Source: a virus
Virus record (IMG/VR): IMGVR_UViG_3300020061_000011
Coordinates: 1-44,192 of that record
Direction: 5' to 3' (one strand)
DNA: 44,192 nt
Shown: in pieces, positions 5,795 to 37,617 of the stretch
Layout of the letters: every line of letters begins with the position of its first letter
Position numbering within the stretch: the stretch's first letter is position 1
The notes under the pieces: generated by a model
What the model saw: only the letters and a program-made list of their open reading frames with translations
The model's database searches: none
Told to the model about the DNA's origin: nothing
Made by a program: the position numbers and the translations under genes

Positions 5795-6126
5795 AGATCG
5801 AACAGCTGCAAGCGTGGGAAAAGGCGAATAACAGGAGATCGCCTAAACTCGCGAGTAGACCGCGTTTACCGCCGTATCTGACCATGTACGTGAACGCGTT
5901 CTTTGATTTAAGCAACCGGCGGCAGTTCTCAATGGCGGAACTGCCGCTGACTGTTGGAGCGATAATCAAGTACGGAAAGCTGTTCGGTTACAGAAGTGAG
6001 CTTCGTTTCTTCTTCAAGATGATGGCCGGCATGGATAACGAATTCCTGTTATTCCATGGCGAACGTCGGAAAGCAGAGACACCGAGCAAGCAGAAGGATA
6101 GCGCGCCCAGATCGGACGGCCTTTAA
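5782..6126 (+). CDS. Tail assembly chaperone, downstream (gpT-like) frame
   Basis: The -1 frame relative to the gpG-like gene encodes 114 residues from ATG 5782, but is more probably made only as the C-terminal part of a frameshifted fusion (125 residues from about 5749: KRVRAAVRWHLEMPKDKIEQ and onward). Features: a helix with Trp (QLQAWEKANNRR), Leu-Pro-rich PRLPPYLTMYVNAF, and a positively charged C-terminus. In the lambda model the T domain binds tail tube subunits and the G domain binds the tape measure protein. The overlap with the preceding gene, lack of a usable Shine-Dalgarno and occluding hairpin support the fusion. It ends just before the terminator upstream of the tape measure gene. 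Confidence 0.65.
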   Translation: MPKDKIEQLQAWEKANNRRSPKLASRPRLPPYLTMYVNAFFDLSNRRQFSMAELPLTVGAIIKYGKLFGYRSELRFFFKMMAGMDNEFLLFHGERRKAETPSKQKDSAPRSDGL

Positions 6127-6133
6127 TTTCAAT

Positions 6134-6161
6134 AGCCCTAGCCTGTCGGCTAGGGCTTTTC
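6134..6161 (+). terminator. Intrinsic terminator upstream of tape measure gene
   Basis: Perfect 10-bp stem AGCCCTAGCC (6134-6143) and GGCTAGGGCT (6148-6157), TGTC loop, then TTTC. It lies eight bases after the chaperone stop. Its presence also argues that the tape measure gene starts downstream, at 6212, rather than at the in-frame ATG 6056. Confidence 0.85.
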
Positions 6162-6211
6162 TCCCACAGGTACGCTACACTCATCCTCGCCGCTCTAATA
6201 GGGTCCGTGCA

Positions 6212-9200
6212 ATGGCCGTTGTCGTCCAATTTGACGTAACCAAAGCGCAAGCGGATGTAGACCGCCTAGGCGTTAGTATTCTAGGTTTGGGTACAAAGGC
6301 AGCGGAAGCGTCGGCATCCGTTAAGTCTAATTTAGATTTTTCAAGCGGGATCGCGGCCGAGTTCGCGGCGATCAAGAAAGAAATGGATTCCCTGCGCCAG
6401 ACGGCGAAGGGGCTGAACGACGAAATGGGCCTGACCGCTGCCGGCTTGAAGGCATTCGCGGATAAAGGCACAGCAGTCGTCACAGCGATGCAGGCTTCGT
6501 CTAAGGCTGTCGTCGCCAACGTTCAATCGCTACAGCAGAACAACGCTGCTATATCTACGGCGATCAAGAACGAAGAGCTGCTTAGCGCAGCCAAGGCCAA
6601 ATCGAATATACAGTGGGTCACGCAAGAAAAGGTGATCCGCTCGACTATTACTGCGCAAGAGCTGCAACGCGCGGTAACTTCTCAGCTCAACGATCTGGAA
6701 GAGAAAGGCGCGATCACGACGCAGATGAATATGCGTTATCGCGAGCAGATGCGGCAAACCTACTTGAACACCGGCACGGCAGCTGAAAAGCTGTTGCAGA
6801 CGTTAAAGCAGGAAGCCGATCTATTCCAGCGGTCGAACGAATACGTGGTTCGAGCTACAGCCGGATACAAGCTGTTGACTTATCAGCAGCAGCAGTCCGT
6901 GCAGCTGTTCTCGAATATCGGCGTAGCCATGAAGAACACGAACGATCTGTTCGTGAAGGCCGAAACTGCAAATGAGCAATACAACCGTCGTCTGAAGGAT
7001 TTGAATCTTCTTCTGGACAACGGCGTTATCACGCGGGCCAAGTACAATACAGCGGTAGAAAACTCGAATCGTATACTCAACGATTCGATAGCGCAGCAGG
7101 CCAAAGCTGCGGAAGCGATGCGCCTTAAGGCGTATCAAGATTCTGAGGCGGCCAAGCAGGAGAAGGCTGTATCCGACGCCATTCGGAACACGACTGGCGT
7201 TGTGCAGCGTGGACTTGACCCTCTTGCGCAGTATACCGCTCGGCTCCGCGATCTCAACACGGCTCGCGCAGGCGCAACAGACTTTTCTGGTAATCGTGTA
7301 GGACTCTCGCAACAACAGTATATCACCGGGCTCGCTGGCGCACGCGCAGAACTAGAACGAAACATCGCGTCATCAGCTAGAGCAGCAGTCGGACTCAGCG
7401 GCCTCACTCGCGAATTTAGCGTCGGCACTCAGGCGGCAGCGGGATTCCGCGCCGGATTGCAGGGAGCCGGCCTCGGCTTTGGCATCTTCACCGGATCGAC
7501 GATCGCCGTCGCGACGGGCGTCTATGCGCTGTCGAAGGCTATGCGCGAGTCGTTGGGCGCTGGCGCCGAGTTTCAGGAGCGCTTCGCTCGCGCTGGCGCG
7601 ATGCTCGCCGGCTTTCGAGATGCGCTAGGAACTGTATCGCCGCAAGCGCGGCTGCTTAATGTGGAAATTCTCGGCTTAGCCGAGACAACGCGGTTCTCGG
7701 CAAGCGAGATCGCGGATGCAGTGAAAGCGCTGGGCCAAGCCGGCTACGATACCGCGCAGGCAATGCGAGCGCTCCCGACTGTCCTGAATTTGGCGACAGT
7801 TGGCGAGATTAGCACGACCGAAGCGTCTGAACGGCTTGTCAACATTCTTGCGGCATTTGGGCTGCAAGCGGAGAACGCAGCGGAAGTTGCGGACAAGCTA
7901 GGCAAAGCGTCTCTTGTCTCTACTGTCACGATATCCCAGCTTGGTACAGCGTTGGGGTACGTCGGGCAATCTGCGCATTCGGCCGGCATAAGCCTAGAAA
8001 CAACGCTAGGTGGTATTGCGTTCCTGCGCCAGATTGGTATCCAAGCGTCAAAGACCGGTACCGATCTGCGGAATATCATTCAAGACCTTGCGGCGCCGAC
8101 GAAGAGAGCTGCGCAGGCATTGCACGAAGTCGGGCTGGAAAGTTCGCAGTTCTTTAGCGGACCGGGCGGTGCGCTCGATCTGGTACAGACGTTTGAGAAG
8201 TTGCGCGATAAGCTGAAAGATTTCAGTTTGCAGGCGAAAGAAGCGTTTGCGGTCAAGATATTTGATAGCCGTACGGCAGGCGCGTTTTTGGCGTTCATTG
8301 ACCCTGAGAAGCTTGAGATATTTAAGAACTATATAGCGCAAATTGAGAAAGCCCAAGGCGAAATGCAGAGCCTTGTGGACATTATCAATGACAATGCAGT
8401 TACGGCGTTCGCTCAGTTTAAGAACACGCTACAGAATGTTGCTATTAACGCATTCACCGATTATTCCGGCAAGCTTACGGGCGACCTGAAAGAGCTGACA
8501 CAATTCATTCAAGACAACGGACCGAAGATTTCGGAGATCATTTCGTCTGTTGCCTCTAAGATTGTCGATGTAACGGAAGTTATTGTTCGCAACTTCGGAC
8601 TGATAACTTCTGGTCTCGCTGCGTTTACTGGCTTGAAGATCGTTGAAGCTATCGGTTCGTCGCTGGCGGCGCGGATCACAACGTTCATGGGCGCGTATCA
8701 GGCTGCGGCAACTCGCGCGGCTGCGGCCCAAGTAGAGCTGAATCTTACGCAGAATGCCGGTACCGTCGCAGGCATGCGGTATACGGCGGAAATGGAAGCG
8801 GAAATACTTGCCATGAATGGCGTCACCGCCGCTGCTGGACGTGCCGCAGCCGCTACCGGCGCGCTCGGTGTAGCGACCGGGGGCGCGGCAACGGCTGGCG
8901 TCTTGTCGTTGTCTGGCGTGATGCGTGGCGGATTAGCGCTGATTGGCGGATGGCCGACGCTTATTGCGGCAGCAGTGATTGGCGTCGGGTATTTTGCATA
9001 TAAGACGCACGAGGCGAGCAAATCCATTGAAGTCGATCTGAACAAGATCAACATGGATTTCTATCAGTTGCAGGAGGCAATGAAGGCAACGGACACGCTA
9101 GATTTCGCCGGTCTTCGCAGCTTCGGCCAGCAGGTTCAAGGAGAGATAGCAACGCTGGAAGACGCTAATAAAGCGCTTCAGCACAACATCGATCTGATTC

Positions 9201-12200
9201 AGGCGAAAGGCCGCGTATCGCAGGCCACCTACGCTAAGACCGGCTCTACTACGCCGCTGTCCGATGCCGATATTGCTGCGATAGCAACGGCGCGCGCGCA
9301 GATGGAGGGGGTGAATAAGCAGATAGATTTACTGCGCGAACAAGGTGTCAAGCTGAAGACGGAGGAATGGTTTAAGAACGCGGGGACGCAGAAAGCTATC
9401 GAAGGTCTGCAAACTCTGACTACGGAAGCTCAGCAAACTATCTTGACGCTGAGCCCTGTCATGCAGAGTTTCGCGAACGACATCGGAGGTATGTTCCTTC
9501 GTGTTGGTTCCGTTATTACAGGCATGTTCAATACCGCAGGATTCCAAGCTACCAGCTTCTTTAAGCTGATGCAGCCGTTCTTTGAAGATCGGACAGGGCT
9601 CGGCGTAAACCCGACGCCTGCGAAGCCAACTGAAGTTCCGGGCGGCGGTAGCGACGCAGCAGCGGCGCAAGCGGCGCGGATGAAAGAGCTGGCGAACGAG
9701 ATCAAAGGCGTTGTTACGGAGTACGAGAAGGCAACTTCGTCCACGTACGAATTCGATCACGCGTTCAAGAACGTTACGGATTCCATCGACAACCTCAAGA
9801 ACAAGCACGTCGCTGACGAGCTTGCGAAGATCGGCGTGTCCGCAGAGGAAGCGAAGACCGCGCTGGTGTGGAAGGGTGCGGATGTCGTTTTCAAGGATTT
9901 GAAGGCGCGCCTCGTCGAAATCAATCCAGAGTTCTCAAAGCTGAAGACGGTGCAGGCGGACGGCGCGCAACAGTCTAGCAAAGCGGCGGACGCGTATTCG
10001 ATCCTCGCAGATGAAATGACGCGCATCGGCGATGTTTCTCCGGAAGTCGCCGCCGCGCTGAAAGTGATGTTCGATTCTGTGCGCGATCAGGTGCCGGACG
10101 TTCTTAACGGGGTTGCGGACCTACAGGATCGTCTCAACGAAATCAGTACCGGATCGAGCGCGAAACTCGACGCGGTGTTCCGTGTCGATTCCATGCCGTC
10201 GTTCCTTGCGCAGCTGGATAAGGCAAACATTTCCATCAGCGAGTGGGATAAAGGCGCCATCGCCATCGACGCTGCGAACAAATTGCTTGGCGGCTCCACA
10301 AAGTCCGTTGCGAACGCGCTGGCGGAAGTGTCCGACAACCAAGCGGAAGCGAACGCAATGCTGGCGATCAACAACGCCTTGCATGATGCGCCGCAACTTC
10401 GCGATGCGACGGGCCGTCTGAATGCGTACGGTCTGGCGCTGCAAAACGTGTACAACCAGACGACGCAAGGCGCACTGGAATTGCAGAATAAGAACCTGCA
10501 AAACCAGATCGACCTAATCAAGTCTGGCGTCAATGATCTGACGCTGTATAACGAGCTGTGGAAGGCATCCAAGGGCGGCGTGATCGAACTTACGGATGCG
10601 CAAGTCGGGCTCATCAAAACGCAGGAACAGCTGAGCGTGCAGCTCGCGAACCTGCAAGCGCAGCAAGCCGCGTGGAAGCAGCTTGGCGAGGGTATGGCCG
10701 ACGTGTTCGCAAAGGCCGCGACCGGCGCGTATTCCAGCTTTAAAGATGCGTTCGCTGATATCAAGAAGTCGTTCAAGCAACTGCTGTACGATCTGATTAA
10801 GCAAGCAGCAATGCAGCAGATCATGATTTACATGGGCTTCCAGCAAGGCGGCGGAGGCGGAGGCGGTGGCGGTAGTTGGATGAGCATGCTTGGTAGCTTG
10901 TTCGGAAGTTCTACCAGCGGTGGCAGCTCGGGCGCGAACAGTGGATGGACGCTGACTGATCTGGCGGGCATGGCTGCGAGCAACAACACGGGGTATAACG
11001 GAGGCGGGGCCGCAGGCGGCGGCACAGGCGGCGGCTGGTTCGGAACTGCGTCAAACGTCTATAGCGCCGGACGTATGGGTTACAACGCCTATACTGGCGG
11101 CATAGGCAACATGACCAGCGGTATCGGGTCAATGTGGAGCGGAAGCGGGCAAACCATGCCCGGTGCCGGATACTTCGGCTCATCCGTGTACGGCCCCGGA
11201 ATGGCGACGAGCTACGCGCCTACGGCGCTTGGCTACGGTACTGCGGTCGGAGCGGGCCTGTACATGGGCTACAACCGCTACCAGCAGGGCGGAGCGATGG
11301 GCGGCATGGCGGGCGGCGCGACCTACGCAGTGGGCGGCACAGCCCTTGCGCTGGGCGCCGGCTCGATGATGGCCGGTAGCGGCTTCGCGGCCGGCGTCGG
11401 CTCCATGGCGACGGGTGCGACGGCCATGGGCGCGTCCGCAGGCGTTGCGGCAGCGATCCCGATCATCGGGTGGATCGCGCTCGCGATGATGCTGGTTGAC
11501 ATGATGAGCGGCGGAAAGCTGTTTGGCACGGACGCCGTTCCTAAAGGCTTTGGTACGACGATAGGCGTTCAACAGAGCGGCGCCGTAGTTACCAACGAAT
11601 TACACTCTAAAGGCCAGCATGCGCTATTTGGCGGATCGTACTGGGAAAACAGCCCGCTAGACACGACGCCCGAACAACAGGCGATGGCCGATAAAATCCA
11701 GAACAGCATCGAAGCTTCTGGAAAGAAGGCCGCATCCGCGCTTGGCGTCACGATGGCAGAAATGGTATCCGGCGCGTTCACGACCGAGTTCGACACGAAA
11801 GGTAACGTAGAGAGCGAAGTTTCTACCGTCCTCGGTAAAGTCTATACCGAGTCGATGGAAGACTTTATCAAGCGTATGCAGGCTGAACAGGTTGTCGCGC
11901 AGATTGGCGTAAGTATCGCGGCAATGGGCGGCAACGCCGACGAAGCCTCGAAGATCGCCGAACAGTTCCGCTCCGACGCAACGACATTCGCTGACGCGGC
12001 AGCATTCATGCTAAACGCGCAGATCGACATCAAAAACGGTGTTGGTCTTCTTCGTGAAGTTGGTCCCGGCGTGCTGTCGAAGACCGTAGATATCGTTGTC
12101 GAACTGCAACAGCAGAACGAAACGCTTGTTGACACGTACGCCCGTCTGATCGGCGAAGTCAACTTGGTTCAATCGATCATGGATTCGCTCGGCGACGGTT

Positions 12201-14629
12201 TCAACAAGACCGGCGTCGAATTGGTGCAATTCTCCGACGACGTGGTGCAAGCGCTGGGTGGCCTAGACCAAGCGAAGGTAGCTTGGGATTTCTTCACTTT
12301 TGGCATTATGCAAGGTGTGGACAAGGTTTCTCAGGCTACCAGCAGCGGAGCACTGACTTCGCAGCTGGTGTCGCTCGGACTGGATGCGAACACTTCTGCG
12401 GAAGAATTCGCTAAAGCGTTCAAAACCTTCTCTTCGTCGTTGTCTGCGGAAGAGCTGGCGAAGTGGATTCAAGCCGGCGCGGCGATGGGCGCAATCAGCC
12501 AGAGCATGCTGATCCTGCAAGGCTACGCGGATGGCGTCGATCTGACCGGAGTGTTCAGCGCGCAGGCGCAGATGATCCAGCAAGTGAACGCGCAGATCGA
12601 TGCGGCGGCGCGGCTGGGTGCGAGCGAAGAAGAGCTGGCGAAGATGCGCGACTACGGTCGTCAGGCCATAGCCAAGCAGCTTGACGACTTCATGGGCAAC
12701 ATCGAATCTCAAATCGGTAAGTTTGAGGGCGGAGACTGGACGTACCAGTTAAAGCAGATCAACACCCAAATGCGCGCTAACATCGACACGGCGCGTGCAA
12801 TGGGTGCCAGCCAGCAACAGCTGGCTGAGATTCAAAAACTGGCTGCGTATCAGACTGCGCAAGTTATAGCGCAGCTGCAAGCTGCGCTTATTTCAGGCAT
12901 TAAGCAGCTGCACGGCGTAACAGACGACCAGCAGAATAGTGGCGGCGGAAACAGCTTCGATCAGGTTGCAGCAGACGGGCGCAACGCGCTCCTAGATGCG
13001 CAGCGCGAGCTGTACGATGCGGCACAGACCGCAATCAAGAACATCAAGGAATTTCTTGATAGCTTGGATGTTGGCGCGCTATCGCCGGATGGCTGGGATG
13101 TACAGCTGGGTTCGGCCGGATCGCAATTCGATCAAATGCTAGCTGCGGCGCAGGGCGGCGATGTTGATGCGATCCAGAACATTACGAACTATGCGCAAGA
13201 GTATTTGCAGCATGCGCAGGACGCATACGGCAATAGCGTTCAATATCAGGCGATCTTCGATTACGTTACGCAAGCGCTGCAAAGCCTGTCTACTGATCTC
13301 GGCACGATCACAGAGCCGCCGGACTCGAGCACGGGCGGTGGTGGTGGCGGTGGCGGTGGCGCGACTCGCGATATTCTGTCCACAGAGGATCGCTTCCAGT
13401 TAGCGTTCCAGATCGCTAATCAGATAGGCGCGTTGAGTCTTGCGACGGAAGTCAGCATTTACGATTTGATGGATAAATTCGGCACCAGTTTGGGTGAACT
13501 CGCCACCAGCATGGGTATCAACCTTAATCATCTGGACGAGGATACGATCAGCAGCATAACGATGCTGGCGGCAGCACTGAATCTTTCGGCGGTCGATCTG
13601 TTGACGGCGTTAGGCGCTCAACCGGCGGCGATTGGCGCATTCTTTGAAGTCACGGCACAACAGCTTAACGAGGGTAATCTAGCCGGGCTGCAAACTATGG
13701 CGGAAGCGCTGGGTATTAGCGTATTTGACGCAATGACGTTCCTTGGGGCGTCGCTACCGGAAGCGATCAAAGCGAACGGCATTGATATTACAAGCCTCGA
13801 CGCGGTGACCATGCTGAAGCTGGGAGACATCTCGAACATCCTAGGCGTGAGCATCGTTGAGCTGTTGACGGAACTCGGCGTTGATATCGGTAAATTCGCA
13901 CAGCCGTTGGCGGATACGATCCGCGACGACCTGTCTAAGATTCCCAACTTATCCGCAGAAACGATCGCGGGGCTAGACCCGCTGCTAGTTGCACTAGGAA
14001 CGGCGATCACACAGGGCGACCTGACAACGGCGCTGGATTCGATTAACACGTTTATTTCGACGCTTCCCGCAGATCAAGCACTGGCGCTAACGCAGCTGTT
14101 TGGTGCGTTGGGCATCAGCCTTACGGGCGTAGGCACTTCGGTAGATGCGCAGACCGTCGTTCAAAACAACATTGCGCTGAATACGGGCAGTACCGCGTCA
14201 AACATCAGCACGCTGAACGATAACGTGATGACTTATATCAAGGTGCCGCTGGACGAAATTGCGCGTAACACGCGCGCTAGGCCGACTTCACCGACACCGG
14301 GCGAATCTGACAGCACTGCGTTCGGTTTCGGCACCGACGACATGGGGGCATCGCGCGGCAGTTACGAAGTGCCGATCCCGCCGCCGGAAGATATCAACGC
14401 GCGTTCGTCAGAAGGTACAAGCGAAGCCAAGGATCATGCAATAACGGCGACAGAAGAGATGCATGTGACACTCCGCGAGGTTAAAGAAGAACTGCGCGTT
14501 ACTCGCGAGATTGTAGGCGCTAAGTTGGATCGCGGTAATGAAACGCAAGTTGAGACGCGCGACAAGGTACATAAGCTGAACAAGACAACACAGCGTCAAA
14601 CCATTTCCAAGTCGTTTAAACGCAAATGA
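6212..14629 (+). CDS. Tape measure protein (giant, 2805 aa)
   Basis: Sets tail length and is ejected ahead of the DNA. Start ATG 6212 (TAGGG seven bases before) is preferred to ATG 6056 because a terminator lies between them. Residues 20-400 are coiled-coil-rich. Residues about 490-630 hold the conserved tape measure core (for example SLETTLGGIAFLRQIGIQAS and TGTDLRNIIQDL). Hydrophobic segments lie near 423-440, 908-931 and in a Gly/Ala-rich stretch 1600-1766 ending IPIIGWIALAMMLVDMM. A lambda gpH-like C-terminal-domain motif (FKDAFADIKKSFKQLLYDL) occurs at about 1510-1545 in mid-protein, followed by a poly-Gly run. A second Gly run near 2376 precedes helical repeats of about 45 residues (2390-2640). 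At about 0.15 nm per residue the tail would be near 420 nm. Confidence 0.92.
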   Translation: MAVVVQFDVTKAQADVDRLGVSILGLGTKAAEASASVKSNLDFSSGIAAEFAAIKKEMDSLRQTAKGLNDEMGLTAAGLKAFADKGTAVVTAMQASSKAVVANVQSLQQNNAAISTAIKNEELLSAAKAKSNIQWVTQEKVIRSTITAQELQRAVTSQLNDLEEKGAITTQMNMRYREQMRQTYLNTGTAAEKLLQTLKQEADLFQRSNEYVVRATAGYKLLTYQQQQSVQLFSNIGVAMKNTNDLFVKAETANEQYNRRLKDLNLLLDNGVITRAKYNTAVENSNRILNDSIAQQAKAAEAMRLKAYQDSEAAKQEKAVSDAIRNTTGVVQRGLDPLAQYTARLRDLNTARAGATDFSGNRVGLSQQQYITGLAGARAELERNIASSARAAVGLSGLTREFSVGTQAAAGFRAGLQGAGLGFGIFTGSTIAVATGVYALSKAMRESLGAGAEFQERFARAGAMLAGFRDALGTVSPQARLLNVEILGLAETTRFSASEIADAVKALGQAGYDTAQAMRALPTVLNLATVGEISTTEASERLVNILAAFGLQAENAAEVADKLGKASLVSTVTISQLGTALGYVGQSAHSAGISLETTLGGIAFLRQIGIQASKTGTDLRNIIQDLAAPTKRAAQALHEVGLESSQFFSGPGGALDLVQTFEKLRDKLKDFSLQAKEAFAVKIFDSRTAGAFLAFIDPEKLEIFKNYIAQIEKAQGEMQSLVDIINDNAVTAFAQFKNTLQNVAINAFTDYSGKLTGDLKELTQFIQDNGPKISEIISSVASKIVDVTEVIVRNFGLITSGLAAFTGLKIVEAIGSSLAARITTFMGAYQAAATRAAAAQVELNLTQNAGTVAGMRYTAEMEAEILAMNGVTAAAGRAAAATGALGVATGGAATAGVLSLSGVMRGGLALIGGWPTLIAAAVIGVGYFAYKTHEASKSIEVDLNKINMDFYQLQEAMKATDTLDFAGLRSFGQQVQGEIATLEDANKALQHNIDLIQAKGRVSQATYAKTGSTTPLSDADIAAIATARAQMEGVNKQIDLLREQGVKLKTEEWFKNAGTQKAIEGLQTLTTEAQQTILTLSPVMQSFANDIGGMFLRVGSVITGMFNTAGFQATSFFKLMQPFFEDRTGLGVNPTPAKPTEVPGGGSDAAAAQAARMKELANEIKGVVTEYEKATSSTYEFDHAFKNVTDSIDNLKNKHVADELAKIGVSAEEAKTALVWKGADVVFKDLKARLVEINPEFSKLKTVQADGAQQSSKAADAYSILADEMTRIGDVSPEVAAALKVMFDSVRDQVPDVLNGVADLQDRLNEISTGSSAKLDAVFRVDSMPSFLAQLDKANISISEWDKGAIAIDAANKLLGGSTKSVANALAEVSDNQAEANAMLAINNALHDAPQLRDATGRLNAYGLALQNVYNQTTQGALELQNKNLQNQIDLIKSGVNDLTLYNELWKASKGGVIELTDAQVGLIKTQEQLSVQLANLQAQQAAWKQLGEGMADVFAKAATGAYSSFKDAFADIKKSFKQLLYDLIKQAAMQQIMIYMGFQQGGGGGGGGGSWMSMLGSLFGSSTSGGSSGANSGWTLTDLAGMAASNNTGYNGGGAAGGGTGGGWFGTASNVYSAGRMGYNAYTGGIGNMTSGIGSMWSGSGQTMPGAGYFGSSVYGPGMATSYAPTALGYGTAVGAGLYMGYNRYQQGGAMGGMAGGATYAVGGTALALGAGSMMAGSGFAAGVGSMATGATAMGASAGVAAAIPIIGWIALAMMLVDMMSGGKLFGTDAVPKGFGTTIGVQQSGAVVTNELHSKGQHALFGGSYWENSPLDTTPEQQAMADKIQNSIEASGKKAASALGVTMAEMVSGAFTTEFDTKGNVESEVSTVLGKVYTESMEDFIKRMQAEQVVAQIGVSIAAMGGNADEASKIAEQFRSDATTFADAAAFMLNAQIDIKNGVGLLREVGPGVLSKTVDIVVELQQQNETLVDTYARLIGEVNLVQSIMDSLGDGFNKTGVELVQFSDDVVQALGGLDQAKVAWDFFTFGIMQGVDKVSQATSSGALTSQLVSLGLDANTSAEEFAKAFKTFSSSLSAEELAKWIQAGAAMGAISQSMLILQGYADGVDLTGVFSAQAQMIQQVNAQIDAAARLGASEEELAKMRDYGRQAIAKQLDDFMGNIESQIGKFEGGDWTYQLKQINTQMRANIDTARAMGASQQQLAEIQKLAAYQTAQVIAQLQAALISGIKQLHGVTDDQQNSGGGNSFDQVAADGRNALLDAQRELYDAAQTAIKNIKEFLDSLDVGALSPDGWDVQLGSAGSQFDQMLAAAQGGDVDAIQNITNYAQEYLQHAQDAYGNSVQYQAIFDYVTQALQSLSTDLGTITEPPDSSTGGGGGGGGGATRDILSTEDRFQLAFQIANQIGALSLATEVSIYDLMDKFGTSLGELATSMGINLNHLDEDTISSITMLAAALNLSAVDLLTALGAQPAAIGAFFEVTAQQLNEGNLAGLQTMAEALGISVFDAMTFLGASLPEAIKANGIDITSLDAVTMLKLGDISNILGVSIVELLTELGVDIGKFAQPLADTIRDDLSKIPNLSAETIAGLDPLLVALGTAITQGDLTTALDSINTFISTLPADQALALTQLFGALGISLTGVGTSVDAQTVVQNNIALNTGSTASNISTLNDNVMTYIKVPLDEIARNTRARPTSPTPGESDSTAFGFGTDDMGASRGSYEVPIPPPEDINARSSEGTSEAKDHAITATEEMHVTLREVKEELRVTREIVGAKLDRGNETQVETRDKVHKLNKTTQRQTISKSFKRK

Positions 14630-26877: not shown

Positions 26878-27684
26878 TTAGTAGCGCGGCCCGTACATCT
26901 TGATACCGTACGCAGAACGTAACGTATACTCGAAATCCCCGCCGTACTCAAACGTCTTCGCGATCCACCACGCGTATTGCACAGGCACGTAATCGTTCTG
27001 ATTCTCGCCGTCTTTCGGCTTACCGAACAGTTTACCCTTGTGCATGCCAATAGGGCAATACTTCATCACGCGCGGTTCCATGCACCACGTCGCCAATTGC
27101 ATCGGCGTCATTTCCAACACCTTGCAGAAGTGATCGACAAGGTTGAACACCATCATGGCGTCGCCTGCGGCGCTGTGCGCTCCTTCGACAGCCATCCCCA
27201 GCCATTCCGTGATCCCGGTCTTACCCGGCTCAGCCTTCGGCGTAGTCAGCTTGTGCGTCGGAGCCATCCAATAAAGCCGGCGTGCGGCGACCAGCGTGTC
27301 GATGATCGGTAGGCCCACCAGCGGGGATTCGCCCGTGATCTTCCACATGATCTCCAGATCGAACGTGCGCACGTTGTGCCCGGCTACGATGACCTTCGGC
27401 GTGCCGTCGATCATGTAGTTCGCTTCGAGCCATTGGTACAGCTCGCGCAGCACGATCGCGTCGTCGCGGCAACCGTCGATCATTTCCTGACTGATCCCGT
27501 GAATCGCAAATGCCTTGTCCGACACTTCCAAACCGGGATCGCAAATCTCATCGACGATCTTCTCATACCGATAACCGTCGCTATCGCCGGGCGAACGCAG
27601 GATGCCTGCTACCTGCACGACTCGGCAGGTAGCAGGCTTCTCCGACGTGGTTTCTGTATCGTACGCCAGAATACGATCCGTCAT
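26878..27684 (-). CDS. ExoX-like 3'-5' exonuclease (DEDDh) with DUF3820-like tail
   Basis: A DnaQ-family 3'-to-5' exonuclease. Motifs: D9-x-E11 (LAYDTETTS), GHNVRTFD (Exo II Asp) and HSAAGDAM (Exo III, with the DEDDh His). The C-terminus carries MKYCPIGMHKGKLFGKP followed by VQYAWWIAKTF, resembling the small DUF3820 domain that follows the exonuclease domain in exodeoxyribonuclease X. Probably acts on mismatched or recombination-derived single-strand ends. The start overlaps the upstream small gene by four bases (ATGA). At 268 residues it is slightly longer than E. coli ExoX (220). Confidence 0.85.
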   Translation of the reverse strand: MTDRILAYDTETTSEKPATCRVVQVAGILRSPGDSDGYRYEKIVDEICDPGLEVSDKAFAIHGISQEMIDGCRDDAIVLRELYQWLEANYMIDGTPKVIVAGHNVRTFDLEIMWKITGESPLVGLPIIDTLVAARRLYWMAPTHKLTTPKAEPGKTGITEWLGMAVEGAHSAAGDAMMVFNLVDHFCKVLEMTPMQLATWCMEPRVMKYCPIGMHKGKLFGKPKDGENQNDYVPVQYAWWIAKTFEYGGDFEYTLRSAYGIKMYGPRY

Positions 27685-34322: not shown

Positions 34323-34558
34323 TAGTTCACCTTTTTCGGATTGAACTTTACCTTGCCCTCAGTATAGTCCAAAACCTGAGATTCGCAAATAGCTGCCAGC
34401 GTATCCGGAGTCATCGTGCCGTACGTGTCAAACTGGGTTGGCTTACTTTCAAACCGGATAAACAGCTGTAACTCGCATCTTTGAAACTGGTCCGATATTT
34501 CTGAAACGAGTTCCACCAGCCGCTTTTTAATGAGGCTTTCCAGCTTCTTGTCGTCCAT
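34322..34558 (-). CDS. Small unknown protein (78 aa)
   Basis: Not recognised. Starts at ATG 34558, sharing one base with the primase-helicase stop (TGATG), and ends one base inside the SNF2 helicase ATG, so it is translationally coupled on both sides. The sequence has a charged helical N-terminus (DDKKLESLIKKRLVELVSEI), a strand pair QLFIRFES and a basic C-terminus (YTEGKVKFNPKKVN). Possibly a primase- or helicase-associated factor; the inference is from position only. Confidence 0.6.
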   Translation of the reverse strand: MDDKKLESLIKKRLVELVSEISDQFQRCELQLFIRFESKPTQFDTYGTMTPDTLAAICESQVLDYTEGKVKFNPKKVN

Positions 34559-37500
34559 CAGTTTTCCTCGAAGCAAGATACCTCTATCCCTTTCTCCGCC
34601 AGCTTGGCGATATTGAACTTCATGACCGCGCGGTTACGCGCAAAGCCGTCGCGCACCGCAGCTACCGACTCACAGTACGGAGCGAACTTAATCAGCTCTT
34701 TGAACTGCGTGTGCGTCTGGATGACCGGGCGTTCGTGGAAACCCATCTTGTACCGGCAATACTGCGAATGCGCGCTTATGCTGTCCAGATACAGTGCATT
34801 ACCTTCGCGGAAGTAATACTGATTTTTCGGTAGCCACGGGTAGCCGTCCTGTTTGGATGAGATTTCCGACATGACTGCCATGTCCTGCATAACGCGATCC
34901 GCTTCGGATTGTGTCTTACGCGTAGCGATCTCGTCTGCCCTCATCGTTGTCGATTCAAGGAACGTCGCTTCCAGCTCGGCCAGCTCTTCGCCGATCCCCA
35001 GCGCGTACTTGACGTTCAAATGTTCGGCGAACTTGATCCCAGCGAGCACGACACAAAACCCATAGTGCGTGCGGTCTCCTACCTTCGTCGGAATCTTATC
35101 GTACCCATACTGCACCCATTCCCTGACTTGATCGACGTTAATGTGTATCACTTCCATGTACGCCGTCTTCGCGAAACGATTGAAATAGGTGTAGTCGCGC
35201 TTCACTTCCATGAAAGCATCTTCCATCCCCGGCCCCTTGCGATCCTGCTGGTTCATCTGCACTTGAACGCAGCGATGCACCAGCGCCGGGGCCATGATGG
35301 ACTGCTCGGAACACAGCACGGTCGGTCCGGTCAGCACCACGTCGGTTGTATACGCGCCTAGCTGGCCGTCGCCGTGTATCTTCGAGTTCTTGATCGTTCC
35401 GCGCTTGATCGAATGCTGATTGAACACCTTCTTGAAGTGCTCGACAAACTGGTCATACAGCTTGCCCAGCGGGCCGGCGTTGAATTCCTCGACCAGACGC
35501 GGGACCGTCATGGTTTCCGCGACAAACGCGCTCGCTGCGAAAGGTGTCGATCCGCCGCCGCCCAACGACAACGGCATCGCATTTTCCGATCCGCTGCCGC
35601 CAAGGTAGTGGATACCGTGGAGCGCTGCGAACAGCCCGCTTGTCTGCGTCTTGCCGGCTTCCGCGTTACCCCACAGAGACAACAGCGGAAACTCATTTGT
35701 ATACGCGAATATGTGCTGCTTGAGGAAACACGCCATATTCCAGCCCATCATCTGCGCGATGATGGGTTTCTGATTTATCTTGAAAAGCTTGCGGAACATC
35801 TCGGACGTGCGGGCATCGCCCTCGCCCTCTGTGATCGCCTTCACGACGCTCAGGCGCGGCGCTCCCATGATCCGACCGGACAGGCTGTACAAATTCTCGC
35901 CGCCGTACTGATCCACGCTGTACCCCGGCTCGACGTAAGTAAACACGTCCTGTCCGCCCACCTTCGCATGGTGGATACCGTGGCTGTAGACGCGCCGGAT
36001 GTTTATGGTCGTCTTCTCGATGCCGCTGAGTAGTGCGCTTTTCATACGCTGTATGTCTTCGTCTTTGCCGATGAAGGCGAGGTTTTTGAGTCCGCCAAAT
36101 GCGCCGATGTATGCGGCCTTAGATGACCATGCTTGTTCGTCGATGATTACCTTGCCGACGCGCTTATTCTGACAGTATACGATTGCTTCTACTGCTACGC
36201 GCCGATCTTCGTCTAAATTAGACACTCGCTCTATGAAGACTTTCGTGAAGCGCAAAACGTAGTTTGTAACTCGGCGCGGTCCTGCTTGCGATAGGAAGTG
36301 ATATTCGCAACTGGATATGATTAGCCCTTCGGCCGTGTCATCAACCGCGTCCGGCGCTCGATCTCGGCTATGTGTGGGAACTTCGCGTGGAACGCTGCCA
36401 TTATCGCCGCCCCCTCCCACCCCAGTCGGACCGCTTGGCGGTTCTCCTTCTCCCCCGCCTTCATTTCCGGCAGCATTTGCATTGTCTGGGCTGCGGATTG
36501 TGATTTGAGAATCATCATCGTTGCGATCCTCTCTCGATTGGTTTTTCGCTTGGATGGCTTCTTCGGTGTCGTCTTCCTGCTGATACCGAATAAAGCAAAT
36601 TGGACACCGCTCGCACGGCGGCTTCGCAAGAATCGAAAGTATCGATCGACAGCTCCAAGAATAATCGGTGCCGCCGGCAACAGTACCGAAACTGCGCCGT
36701 ACATGGTCAAGACGACTTTCGATATTGTCATGCGATTCTCCCGAAGAATTTCGCGCAAACACTTCCAGCGTTTCTTTCTGATCGGTCGGCGGTACGAACG
36801 CACGGACCGACTTCATCATCTGCACGGACTTCTTGTTGAATCCTATGTCCGACCGGATATTCTCATCCGACATTAAGTCCTGCGCGCACGGCGGCAGCTG
36901 TTCATCGCCCAGCGCGTTACGCATGTTGTCATCGATCAACGTCGCGATCAGAGGTTTCACGTCCTCTGCCCGGCGCTTCGAGAACTTGAACAACGTTTCC
37001 AGCATCGGCGTCCGATGCCCGTTCACCTTCGGAACCGGGATATCTCGCGGCTCCGACACCATCTTGTGATATTCCTTGACGTTTAGCTTATCGAGTTCTT
37101 GCGCGGTCACCAGCACCTTGTAGGTACCTGTATCCTCGCGTTTGCGGTTAGGGAGCCGCCACATGCGGCCTTTGCCTCGCGTGTAGACTTCCCAGTCTAC
37201 ATCGCCGACGTGCATGGACTTCGCTAGTTCCCGGTAAATCAGAGGCAGATCGACCATCTCCACGGCATCCGTGAAAATGTGCATCGGCAGCGTAATATGC
37301 AGCCCCTTCTTCCCCGACAACCAAACAGTGCAATGCGCCGGATTAACGCCGGAATCGCCCATTTTGTCTATGGCTTTCTTAGCGGTCTTGATGCTCTTGG
37401 AAAGGTCCGGACTATCGATATCCAGATAGAACGGCCCGGTGTAGTGAAGCTCGCCAGTCAGGGTTTGTTGGAACCCCGCTGCCTGATTAACAGCGAGGAC

Positions 37501-37617
37501 CGTACAAAACCCGTATTTCTCATCAACTAGCGCAGCCTCTTCTTCCGGAGTACCTACCTTGATCGCATCCCAAACGCCCTTTTTTTCATGGCCTTTGAAA
37601 TAACGGAAAAAATCCAT
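34558..37617 (-). CDS. Primase-helicase: archaeo-eukaryotic-type primase fused to a P-loop helicase
   Basis: A 1,019-residue replication protein. The N-terminal 200 residues hold the AEP primase core: D66-x-D68 in FYLDIDS, S101-G-K-K-G-L-H107 (the S-x-H-type motif), and D141 followed by R-x-x-R-x-P (VDWEVYTRGKGRMWRLPN). Residues 244-341 carry LPPCAQDLM, WSC (C323) and PPCERCPIC (C335, C338, C341), a Cys set reminiscent of the PriL-type iron-sulfur domain. A low-complexity Gly/Pro/Asp linker (345-430) leads to a helicase-like C-terminal half with Walker A GNAEAGKT (650-657), a Walker B-like acidic segment near 700-712 and an arginine-rich end. Probably primes and unwinds at the phage fork. Confidence 0.85.
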   Translation of the reverse strand: MDFFRYFKGHEKKGVWDAIKVGTPEEEAALVDEKYGFCTVLAVNQAAGFQQTLTGELHYTGPFYLDIDSPDLSKSIKTAKKAIDKMGDSGVNPAHCTVWLSGKKGLHITLPMHIFTDAVEMVDLPLIYRELAKSMHVGDVDWEVYTRGKGRMWRLPNRKREDTGTYKVLVTAQELDKLNVKEYHKMVSEPRDIPVPKVNGHRTPMLETLFKFSKRRAEDVKPLIATLIDDNMRNALGDEQLPPCAQDLMSDENIRSDIGFNKKSVQMMKSVRAFVPPTDQKETLEVFARNSSGESHDNIESRLDHVRRSFGTVAGGTDYSWSCRSILSILAKPPCERCPICFIRYQQEDDTEEAIQAKNQSREDRNDDDSQITIRSPDNANAAGNEGGGEGEPPSGPTGVGGGGDNGSVPREVPTHSRDRAPDAVDDTAEGLIISSCEYHFLSQAGPRRVTNYVLRFTKVFIERVSNLDEDRRVAVEAIVYCQNKRVGKVIIDEQAWSSKAAYIGAFGGLKNLAFIGKDEDIQRMKSALLSGIEKTTINIRRVYSHGIHHAKVGGQDVFTYVEPGYSVDQYGGENLYSLSGRIMGAPRLSVVKAITEGEGDARTSEMFRKLFKINQKPIIAQMMGWNMACFLKQHIFAYTNEFPLLSLWGNAEAGKTQTSGLFAALHGIHYLGGSGSENAMPLSLGGGGSTPFAASAFVAETMTVPRLVEEFNAGPLGKLYDQFVEHFKKVFNQHSIKRGTIKNSKIHGDGQLGAYTTDVVLTGPTVLCSEQSIMAPALVHRCVQVQMNQQDRKGPGMEDAFMEVKRDYTYFNRFAKTAYMEVIHINVDQVREWVQYGYDKIPTKVGDRTHYGFCVVLAGIKFAEHLNVKYALGIGEELAELEATFLESTTMRADEIATRKTQSEADRVMQDMAVMSEISSKQDGYPWLPKNQYYFREGNALYLDSISAHSQYCRYKMGFHERPVIQTHTQFKELIKFAPYCESVAAVRDGFARNRAVMKFNIAKLAEKGIEVSCFEEN

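Follow-up and report, generated by a model that had tools for sequence, protein, structure and literature searches.

The locus at positions 34,558 to 37,617 raises the question of whether one phage protein can carry the functions of the primase small subunit, the primase large subunit and a helicase, as the initial annotation proposed. We refer to the whole analysed stretch, 44,192 nucleotides of virus record IMGVR_UViG_3300020061_000011, as the window. The frame lies on the minus strand, which the initial annotation left unstated, with an ATG at 37617 and a stop at 34558, and on the plus strand the same frame is interrupted by stops. The AEP residues, the five cysteines and the Walker A motif that had been named were each found at the residue given for them (Table 1), and their conservation is above chance: D66, D68, H107, D141 and R154 are invariant in 56/56 relatives, and C244, C335 and C338 are kept in all 32 cysteine-bearing relatives in which, as in the window, primase and helicase are fused on one chain (hereafter, fused relatives). 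A full-length AlphaFold2 model built on 51 sequences reached pLDDT 86 and pTM 0.64. Judging by its domains and their homologs, the protein would have both primase and helicase activity.

Table 1. Features of the primase-helicase gene and two of its neighbours in the window (residue numbers refer to the primase-helicase)
Feature	Positions	Strand	Motif or basis
Whole gene, primase-helicase, 1019 aa	34558-37617	-	phrog_16345 'primase', E 2e-60
AEP (PriS-type) catalytic domain, residues 1-202: D66, D68, S101, H107, D141, R154	37012-37617	-	YLDID 64-68, SGKKGLH 101-107
Helical PriCT-1/PriL-CTD-like cysteine domain, residues about 205-350	36568-37005	-	AlphaFold2, hhalign
C244, first cysteine (PPC), on PriL ligand C1 in the alignment	36886-36888	-	LPPC ending at C244
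C323, second cysteine, missing from Lana-type relatives	36649-36651	-	YSWSC ending at C323
C335, C338, C341 (CERCPIC)	36595-36615	-	PPCERCPIC 333-341
Gly/Asp-rich disordered linker, residues about 344-423	36349-36588	-	pLDDT <50 over 344-416
Helicase half, MCM-like / SCCmec-Cch-like, residues 424-1019	34561-36348	-	Fold matches
Walker A, residues 650-657	35647-35670	-	GNAEAGKT
Family A DNA polymerase fused to 5'-3' exonuclease domain, 1159 aa	27889-31368	-	
Separate DnaQ-like exonuclease gene	26878-27684		

The two ends of the protein can be assigned directly. The N-terminal domain is a PriS-type AEP in which the DxD, the SGxxGxH motif, the second catalytic aspartate and the downstream arginine are all present, and the model of residues 1-202 matches human Pri1 with Z 12.0 over 189 aa. 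Its score against PF01896 is 20 bits, under the cut-off, and the serine of the catalytic motif (S101) is replaced by threonine in 8 of the 56 relatives. The helicase half belongs to the MCM-like type of Cch and the SaPI replication helicase, both by its Walker A motif and by its fold over the whole half: the model of residues 424-1019 matches the SCCmec helicase Cch (5dgk) with Z 24.2 over 465 aa and the SaPI replication helicase (8tch) with Z 19.9 over 448 aa. G650, G655, K656, E711 and R782 are nearly invariant among 51 relatives; from their positions, E711 would be the Walker B residue and R782 the arginine finger.

Relatives were collected from several sources. A tblastn search of phage records matched 33 of them. 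Identity was 26-29% over the greater part of the protein in the Pseudomonas phages Lana, PMBT3 and UAntarctica and in Vibrio phages including SHOU24; in KLEB27-3 (Bacillus) and MTATph1 (Moorella), the match is confined to the first 340 residues. Scanning viral contigs with an alignment yielded 80 further loci where a single-protein query had found nothing; a second viral-contig scan added 38, almost all with the stand-alone layout, and a genome-contig scan one. No PDB sequence was found when PDB was searched directly with the window protein. At least three layouts emerge, namely, an AEP with the cysteine domain standing alone, the same module joined to an MCM helicase (L081 and Bacillus phage vB_BboS-125) and the same module joined to a Cch-type helicase, as in the window. 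Stand-alone genes have a DnaB-like or replicative helicase gene nearby, and their cysteine domains share the motif P-x-C ... R-N ... W ... G-C ... C-x(3,4)-C, with three of the four cysteines present in 32/32 aligned rows and the third in 31/32; in the 30-row alignment, all four are invariant. The Pfam PriL model detected no large-subunit gene in the records of ten relatives, an uninformative negative, as the same model is blind to these divergent domains as well.

Several loci lie at the margins of this collection. L077, L082, L083, L088 and L091 form a further group of AEPs of about 400 aa with a cysteine tail and a different spacing of the first cysteine. In Bacillus phage BSP7 (L133:1514-4417) and Microbacterium phage Sparcetus (L134:1074-3944), a related MCM helicase shares its chain with a DnaG-type Toprim primase, which has apparently taken the place of the AEP-PriL module. 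The primase-helicase of PMBT3 (L002:3001-5892) bears the annotation 'RNA polymerase-binding transcription factor', for which the CxxCxxC run may be the reason.

The origin of the cysteine domain becomes visible through the stand-alone relatives. The window's own domain matched no Pfam family, PriCT_1 and PF04104 (archaeal/eukaryotic primase large subunit) included. All 30 stand-alone relatives matched PriCT_1 (PF08708) and 16 of the 30 matched PF04104, with a best E of 7.6e-9, over overlapping stretches. Comparison by hhalign of the cysteine-bearing fused domains with the stand-alone domain gave 99.6%. Because the fused domain thus joins the stand-alone domain, which in turn matches PF04104, homology with PriL is supported at the sequence level, and the cysteine domain of the window can be read as a shortened homologue of the PriL C-terminal domain (PriL-CTD). 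Against a small PriL profile (human, yeast and PolpTN2; the human and yeast sequences agreed with the PDB chains), the stand-alone domain reached a probability of 87%, with an E of 4.5e-6 that is a one-against-one value rather than a database E-value. In this alignment, C1, C2 and the 'CP' cysteine fall on PriL ligands, the fourth PriL ligand is unmatched and a different cysteine is present; in the coordinates of PF04104, human C1 and phage C1 both lie at about position 111. The fused domain itself aligned weakly with two PriL sequences (hhalign, probability 27%), and against PolpTN2 alone a direct profile comparison fell short of significance.

Structure prediction, which had been suggested as a check against PriL-CTD, gave a helical model, yet the direct fold match is at noise level. 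Modelled alone with AlphaFold2, the domain is a helical bundle (pLDDT 90). In the PDB fold search, it matched the RepB' primase (Z 3.7, 66 aa), the Xenopus primase large subunit (Z 3.5, 76 aa) and human PriL-CTD (Z 2.4, 95-98 aa); unrelated helical folds score similarly in the same search, which places the PriL matches (Z 2.4-3.5) within the noise. In a library of viral models, the PMBT3 relative and a protein of 987 aa, the length of the SHOU24 relative, ranked first, and the first 20 entries included, at low probability, three examples of LEF-2, the PriL-like primase subunit of baculoviruses, along with a primase large subunit from an archaeal virus. These fold matches by themselves prove nothing, and the sequence evidence is the stronger.

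The likeness to PriL is partial. The Fe-S_C part of PriL is missing together with its fourth ligand, the last cysteines (C3 and C4) are found in a short tail, and only a short segment separates the AEP (to 202) from the cysteine domain (from about 205), with no PriL N-terminal domain in between. The proposal of three functions on one chain therefore stands for the PriS, large-subunit-CTD and helicase modules but not for a whole large subunit. Furthermore, although homology to the C-terminal part of PriL could be traced through the stand-alone relatives, the site of the initiation arginine (human R306) is F260 in the window. This column holds F, W, L or Y in nearly all fused relatives and arginine in all stand-alone ones (R275 of L094, aligned with human R306); the residue after it is an asparagine that does not vary among the cysteine-bearing fused members. 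With an aromatic residue or leucine in place of the initiation arginine, the details of initiation must therefore differ from those of PriL.

The cysteines evolve as a unit. We counted them in 50 fused relatives, with near copies removed and the window included; the MCM-bearing L081 was counted apart. The cysteine-bearing members number 32 of 50; 15 of these 32 have C323 but not C341, 12 have C341 but not C323 (C341 is thus present in 17/32) and five have both, namely, the window, L015 and three Vibrio phages. The three Vibrio rows required a two-residue hand correction of the alignment, after which their cysteine precedes the CxxCxxC run by 12 residues, the spacing between C323 and C335. The other 18 fused relatives have cysteines elsewhere in the domain but none in the five site columns, and no fused relative carries one to three of the site cysteines. 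Two members of this group, L039 and L078, have a lone cysteine two positions before the C244 site. Hence the five columns behave as one site, of which at least four cysteines are kept or none, and the role of fourth ligand falls to C323, to C341 or to both. The refuting outcome named at the outset, cysteines not conserved in relatives, was half borne out: most of the family keeps them as a set, and one group has lost the entire set.

In the best tree, computed from the AEP part alone, the 18 relatives without the site make up one side of a branch (support 76/27, unstarred), and in a quick tree with a midpoint root the stand-alone relatives fall outside the fused group. Because these outside relatives have four cysteines, loss of the site as a block in one clade is the simpler reading, the root of the tree not having been inferred. 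The change from C323 to C341 occurs twice in the tree; a single change was not rejected (AU p 0.11), and two independent pairs are too few for testing the change. A tentative history, to which we would give slightly less than an even chance, is that the iron-sulfur cluster was an inherited part of the PriL-like domain, that the fourth ligand moved from C323 to C341 through forms with five cysteines, of which the window and SHOU24 are examples, and that the entire cluster was lost in one clade, whose primase active site stayed intact.

The gene lies among others that bear on its role. In addition to the two in Table 1, its neighbours encode a topoisomerase, SbcCD-like proteins and an SNF2-type helicase, a set that fits a replication operon. 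The order in the window (small ORF, primase, small ORF, SNF2-type helicase) resembles that in Lana (small ORF, primase, small ORF, helicase). Elsewhere in the window, on the opposite strand to the primase gene, a 2857 aa open frame (6056-14629, plus strand) perhaps encodes a tape-measure or other large virion protein.

Taken together, these observations are best accommodated by a model that we consider probable, in which the phage possesses its own primase-helicase that combines PriS-type primer synthesis, a PriL-CTD-like initiation helper with a metal centre and a Cch-type helicase. Under this model, the PriS-type domain would make the primer and the helical cysteine domain, a relative of PriL-CTD known as PriCT-1 in mobile elements, would most likely help to hold the template and the first nucleotide at the start. 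Such a role, acting in cis, is suggested by homology: PriL-CTD, or PriX in its stead, holds the first nucleotide and enables the primase to start, the initiation arginine being R306 in human and R355 in yeast (PMC5700102), and de novo primer synthesis by the polymerase of phage NrS-1 is reported to be the joint work of its Prim/Pol and helix-bundle domains (PMC7102993). Four of the five cysteines would serve as ligands of a single structural metal centre, for which a 4Fe-4S cluster is likelier than zinc. The long flexible linker would tether the primase to the MCM-like helicase, presumably a hexamer, such that primers could be laid at the moving fork for the family A DNA polymerase of the phage.

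The identity of the metal is the point on which an alternative has the most to recommend it. In the same protein, the four cysteines might sit on structural zinc, with the PriCT-1 bundle closed by a zinc knuckle. Zinc sites are common beside AEP domains and in mobile-element primases ('ZnBD', PMC5862659), a CxxC pair is present, the Fe-S_C half of PriL is absent, and the shift of the fourth ligand between C323 and C341 would be tolerable for a zinc site. However, three cysteines of the stand-alone relatives align with the cluster ligands of PriL, and PolpTN2, which has a comparably compact cysteine tail (C581, C671, C677, C686), was purified as a light brown protein (PMC3973330). It is from PriL and from this colour that iron appears the likelier metal in the phage domain. 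The all-helical model, with one CxxCxxC run and two lone cysteines, lacks the second CxxC knuckle and the beta hairpins of a zinc ribbon, so that a zinc-ribbon fold only, the other refuting outcome foreseen in the initial annotation, is disfavoured. We accordingly regard zinc as the unlikely choice, albeit one with a real share of the probability.

Two further readings depart more radically from the preferred one. Should the cysteine domain be unrelated to PriL, its helical likeness would have to be convergent, as the lack of a Pfam match for the window domain and the weakness of the PDB fold matches might suggest; given that PF04104 and PriCT_1 match overlapping stretches of the stand-alone relatives and that the hhalign comparison joins both phage groups, convergence appears highly improbable. 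We assign a similarly low, if anything marginally lower, probability to the protein being mainly a repair or restart primase-polymerase of the LigD/PrimPol kind, active outside main replication. The AEP domain does give weak LigD_Prim-Pol matches, but it is fused to a replicative-type helicase, and the PolA, topoisomerase and SNF2-type helicase genes next to it argue against such a role.

The idea of a single AEP-PriL chain is not new. Fusions of PriS and PriL have been described in Nanoarchaeum equitans, prophage phBC6A51 and PolpTN2 (PMC3973330), and the relationship between PriCT and PriL, together with AEP-PriCT-DUF927 chains, was reported in 2018 (PMC5862659). The Bacillus cereus prophage phBC6A51, cited as a PriS-PriL fusion (PMC3973330), would, like the window, have an AEP and a PriL-like domain on one phage chain; a 2005 report on it concerns a primase and an MCM, by its title as cited (PMC3973330, PMC5862659). 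The same combination is found in AYP68415.1 of vB_BboS-125 (DNA_primase_S 3.9e-10, PF04104 9.6e-4, MCM 3.4e-13; PPVC ... FGC ... C ... C), in which the helicase is a classical MCM rather than the Cch type. PolpTN2, from the Thermococcus plasmid pTN2, likewise joins an AEP to a PriL-like domain with four cysteines (PMC3973330) but has no helicase on the chain, and its catalytic histidine is changed to glutamine.

The order of modules in the window is that of PrimQH and All3500, PriCT-1/PriCT-2 primases of mobile elements (AEP-PriCT/ZnBD-DUF927-WH), DUF927 being the family of the staphylococcal Cch helicase and PriCT a proposed homologue of the PriL Fe-S domain (PMC5862659). Compared with these, the AEP of the window matches both PriS and LigD models, and the four-cysteine set is an added feature. 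The stand-alone phage AEPs, such as KLEB27-3 gp067, that of MTATph1 and, by description alone, orf181 of 0305phi8-36 (PMC2147016), differ from the window in having a separate helicase nearby and in keeping the initiation arginine; those of KLEB27-3 and MTATph1 share with it the AEP and the four-cysteine domain. Human and yeast PriL-CTD align with the stand-alone relatives at C1, C2 and the CP cysteine, whereas C4, the Fe-S_C subdomain and the N-terminal domain of PriL are all missing in the phage. No description of the four-cysteine set in this phage family, of the ligand shift or of the block loss was found in the literature searched, a weak negative given that most subscription journals lie outside it; by word count only, 'primase' has zero occurrences in the Lana and PMBT3 papers.

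The present analysis extends the PriL-like domain to a phage family with genomes of roughly 75-90 kb, in which the primase gene is frequently listed as hypothetical. It is debated whether the role of the iron-sulfur cluster of primases goes beyond structure, a redox proposal being cited in PMC5700102. Phage enzymes with four, five or none of the site cysteines and an intact active site would allow a side-by-side comparison of what the metal cluster contributes to a primase.
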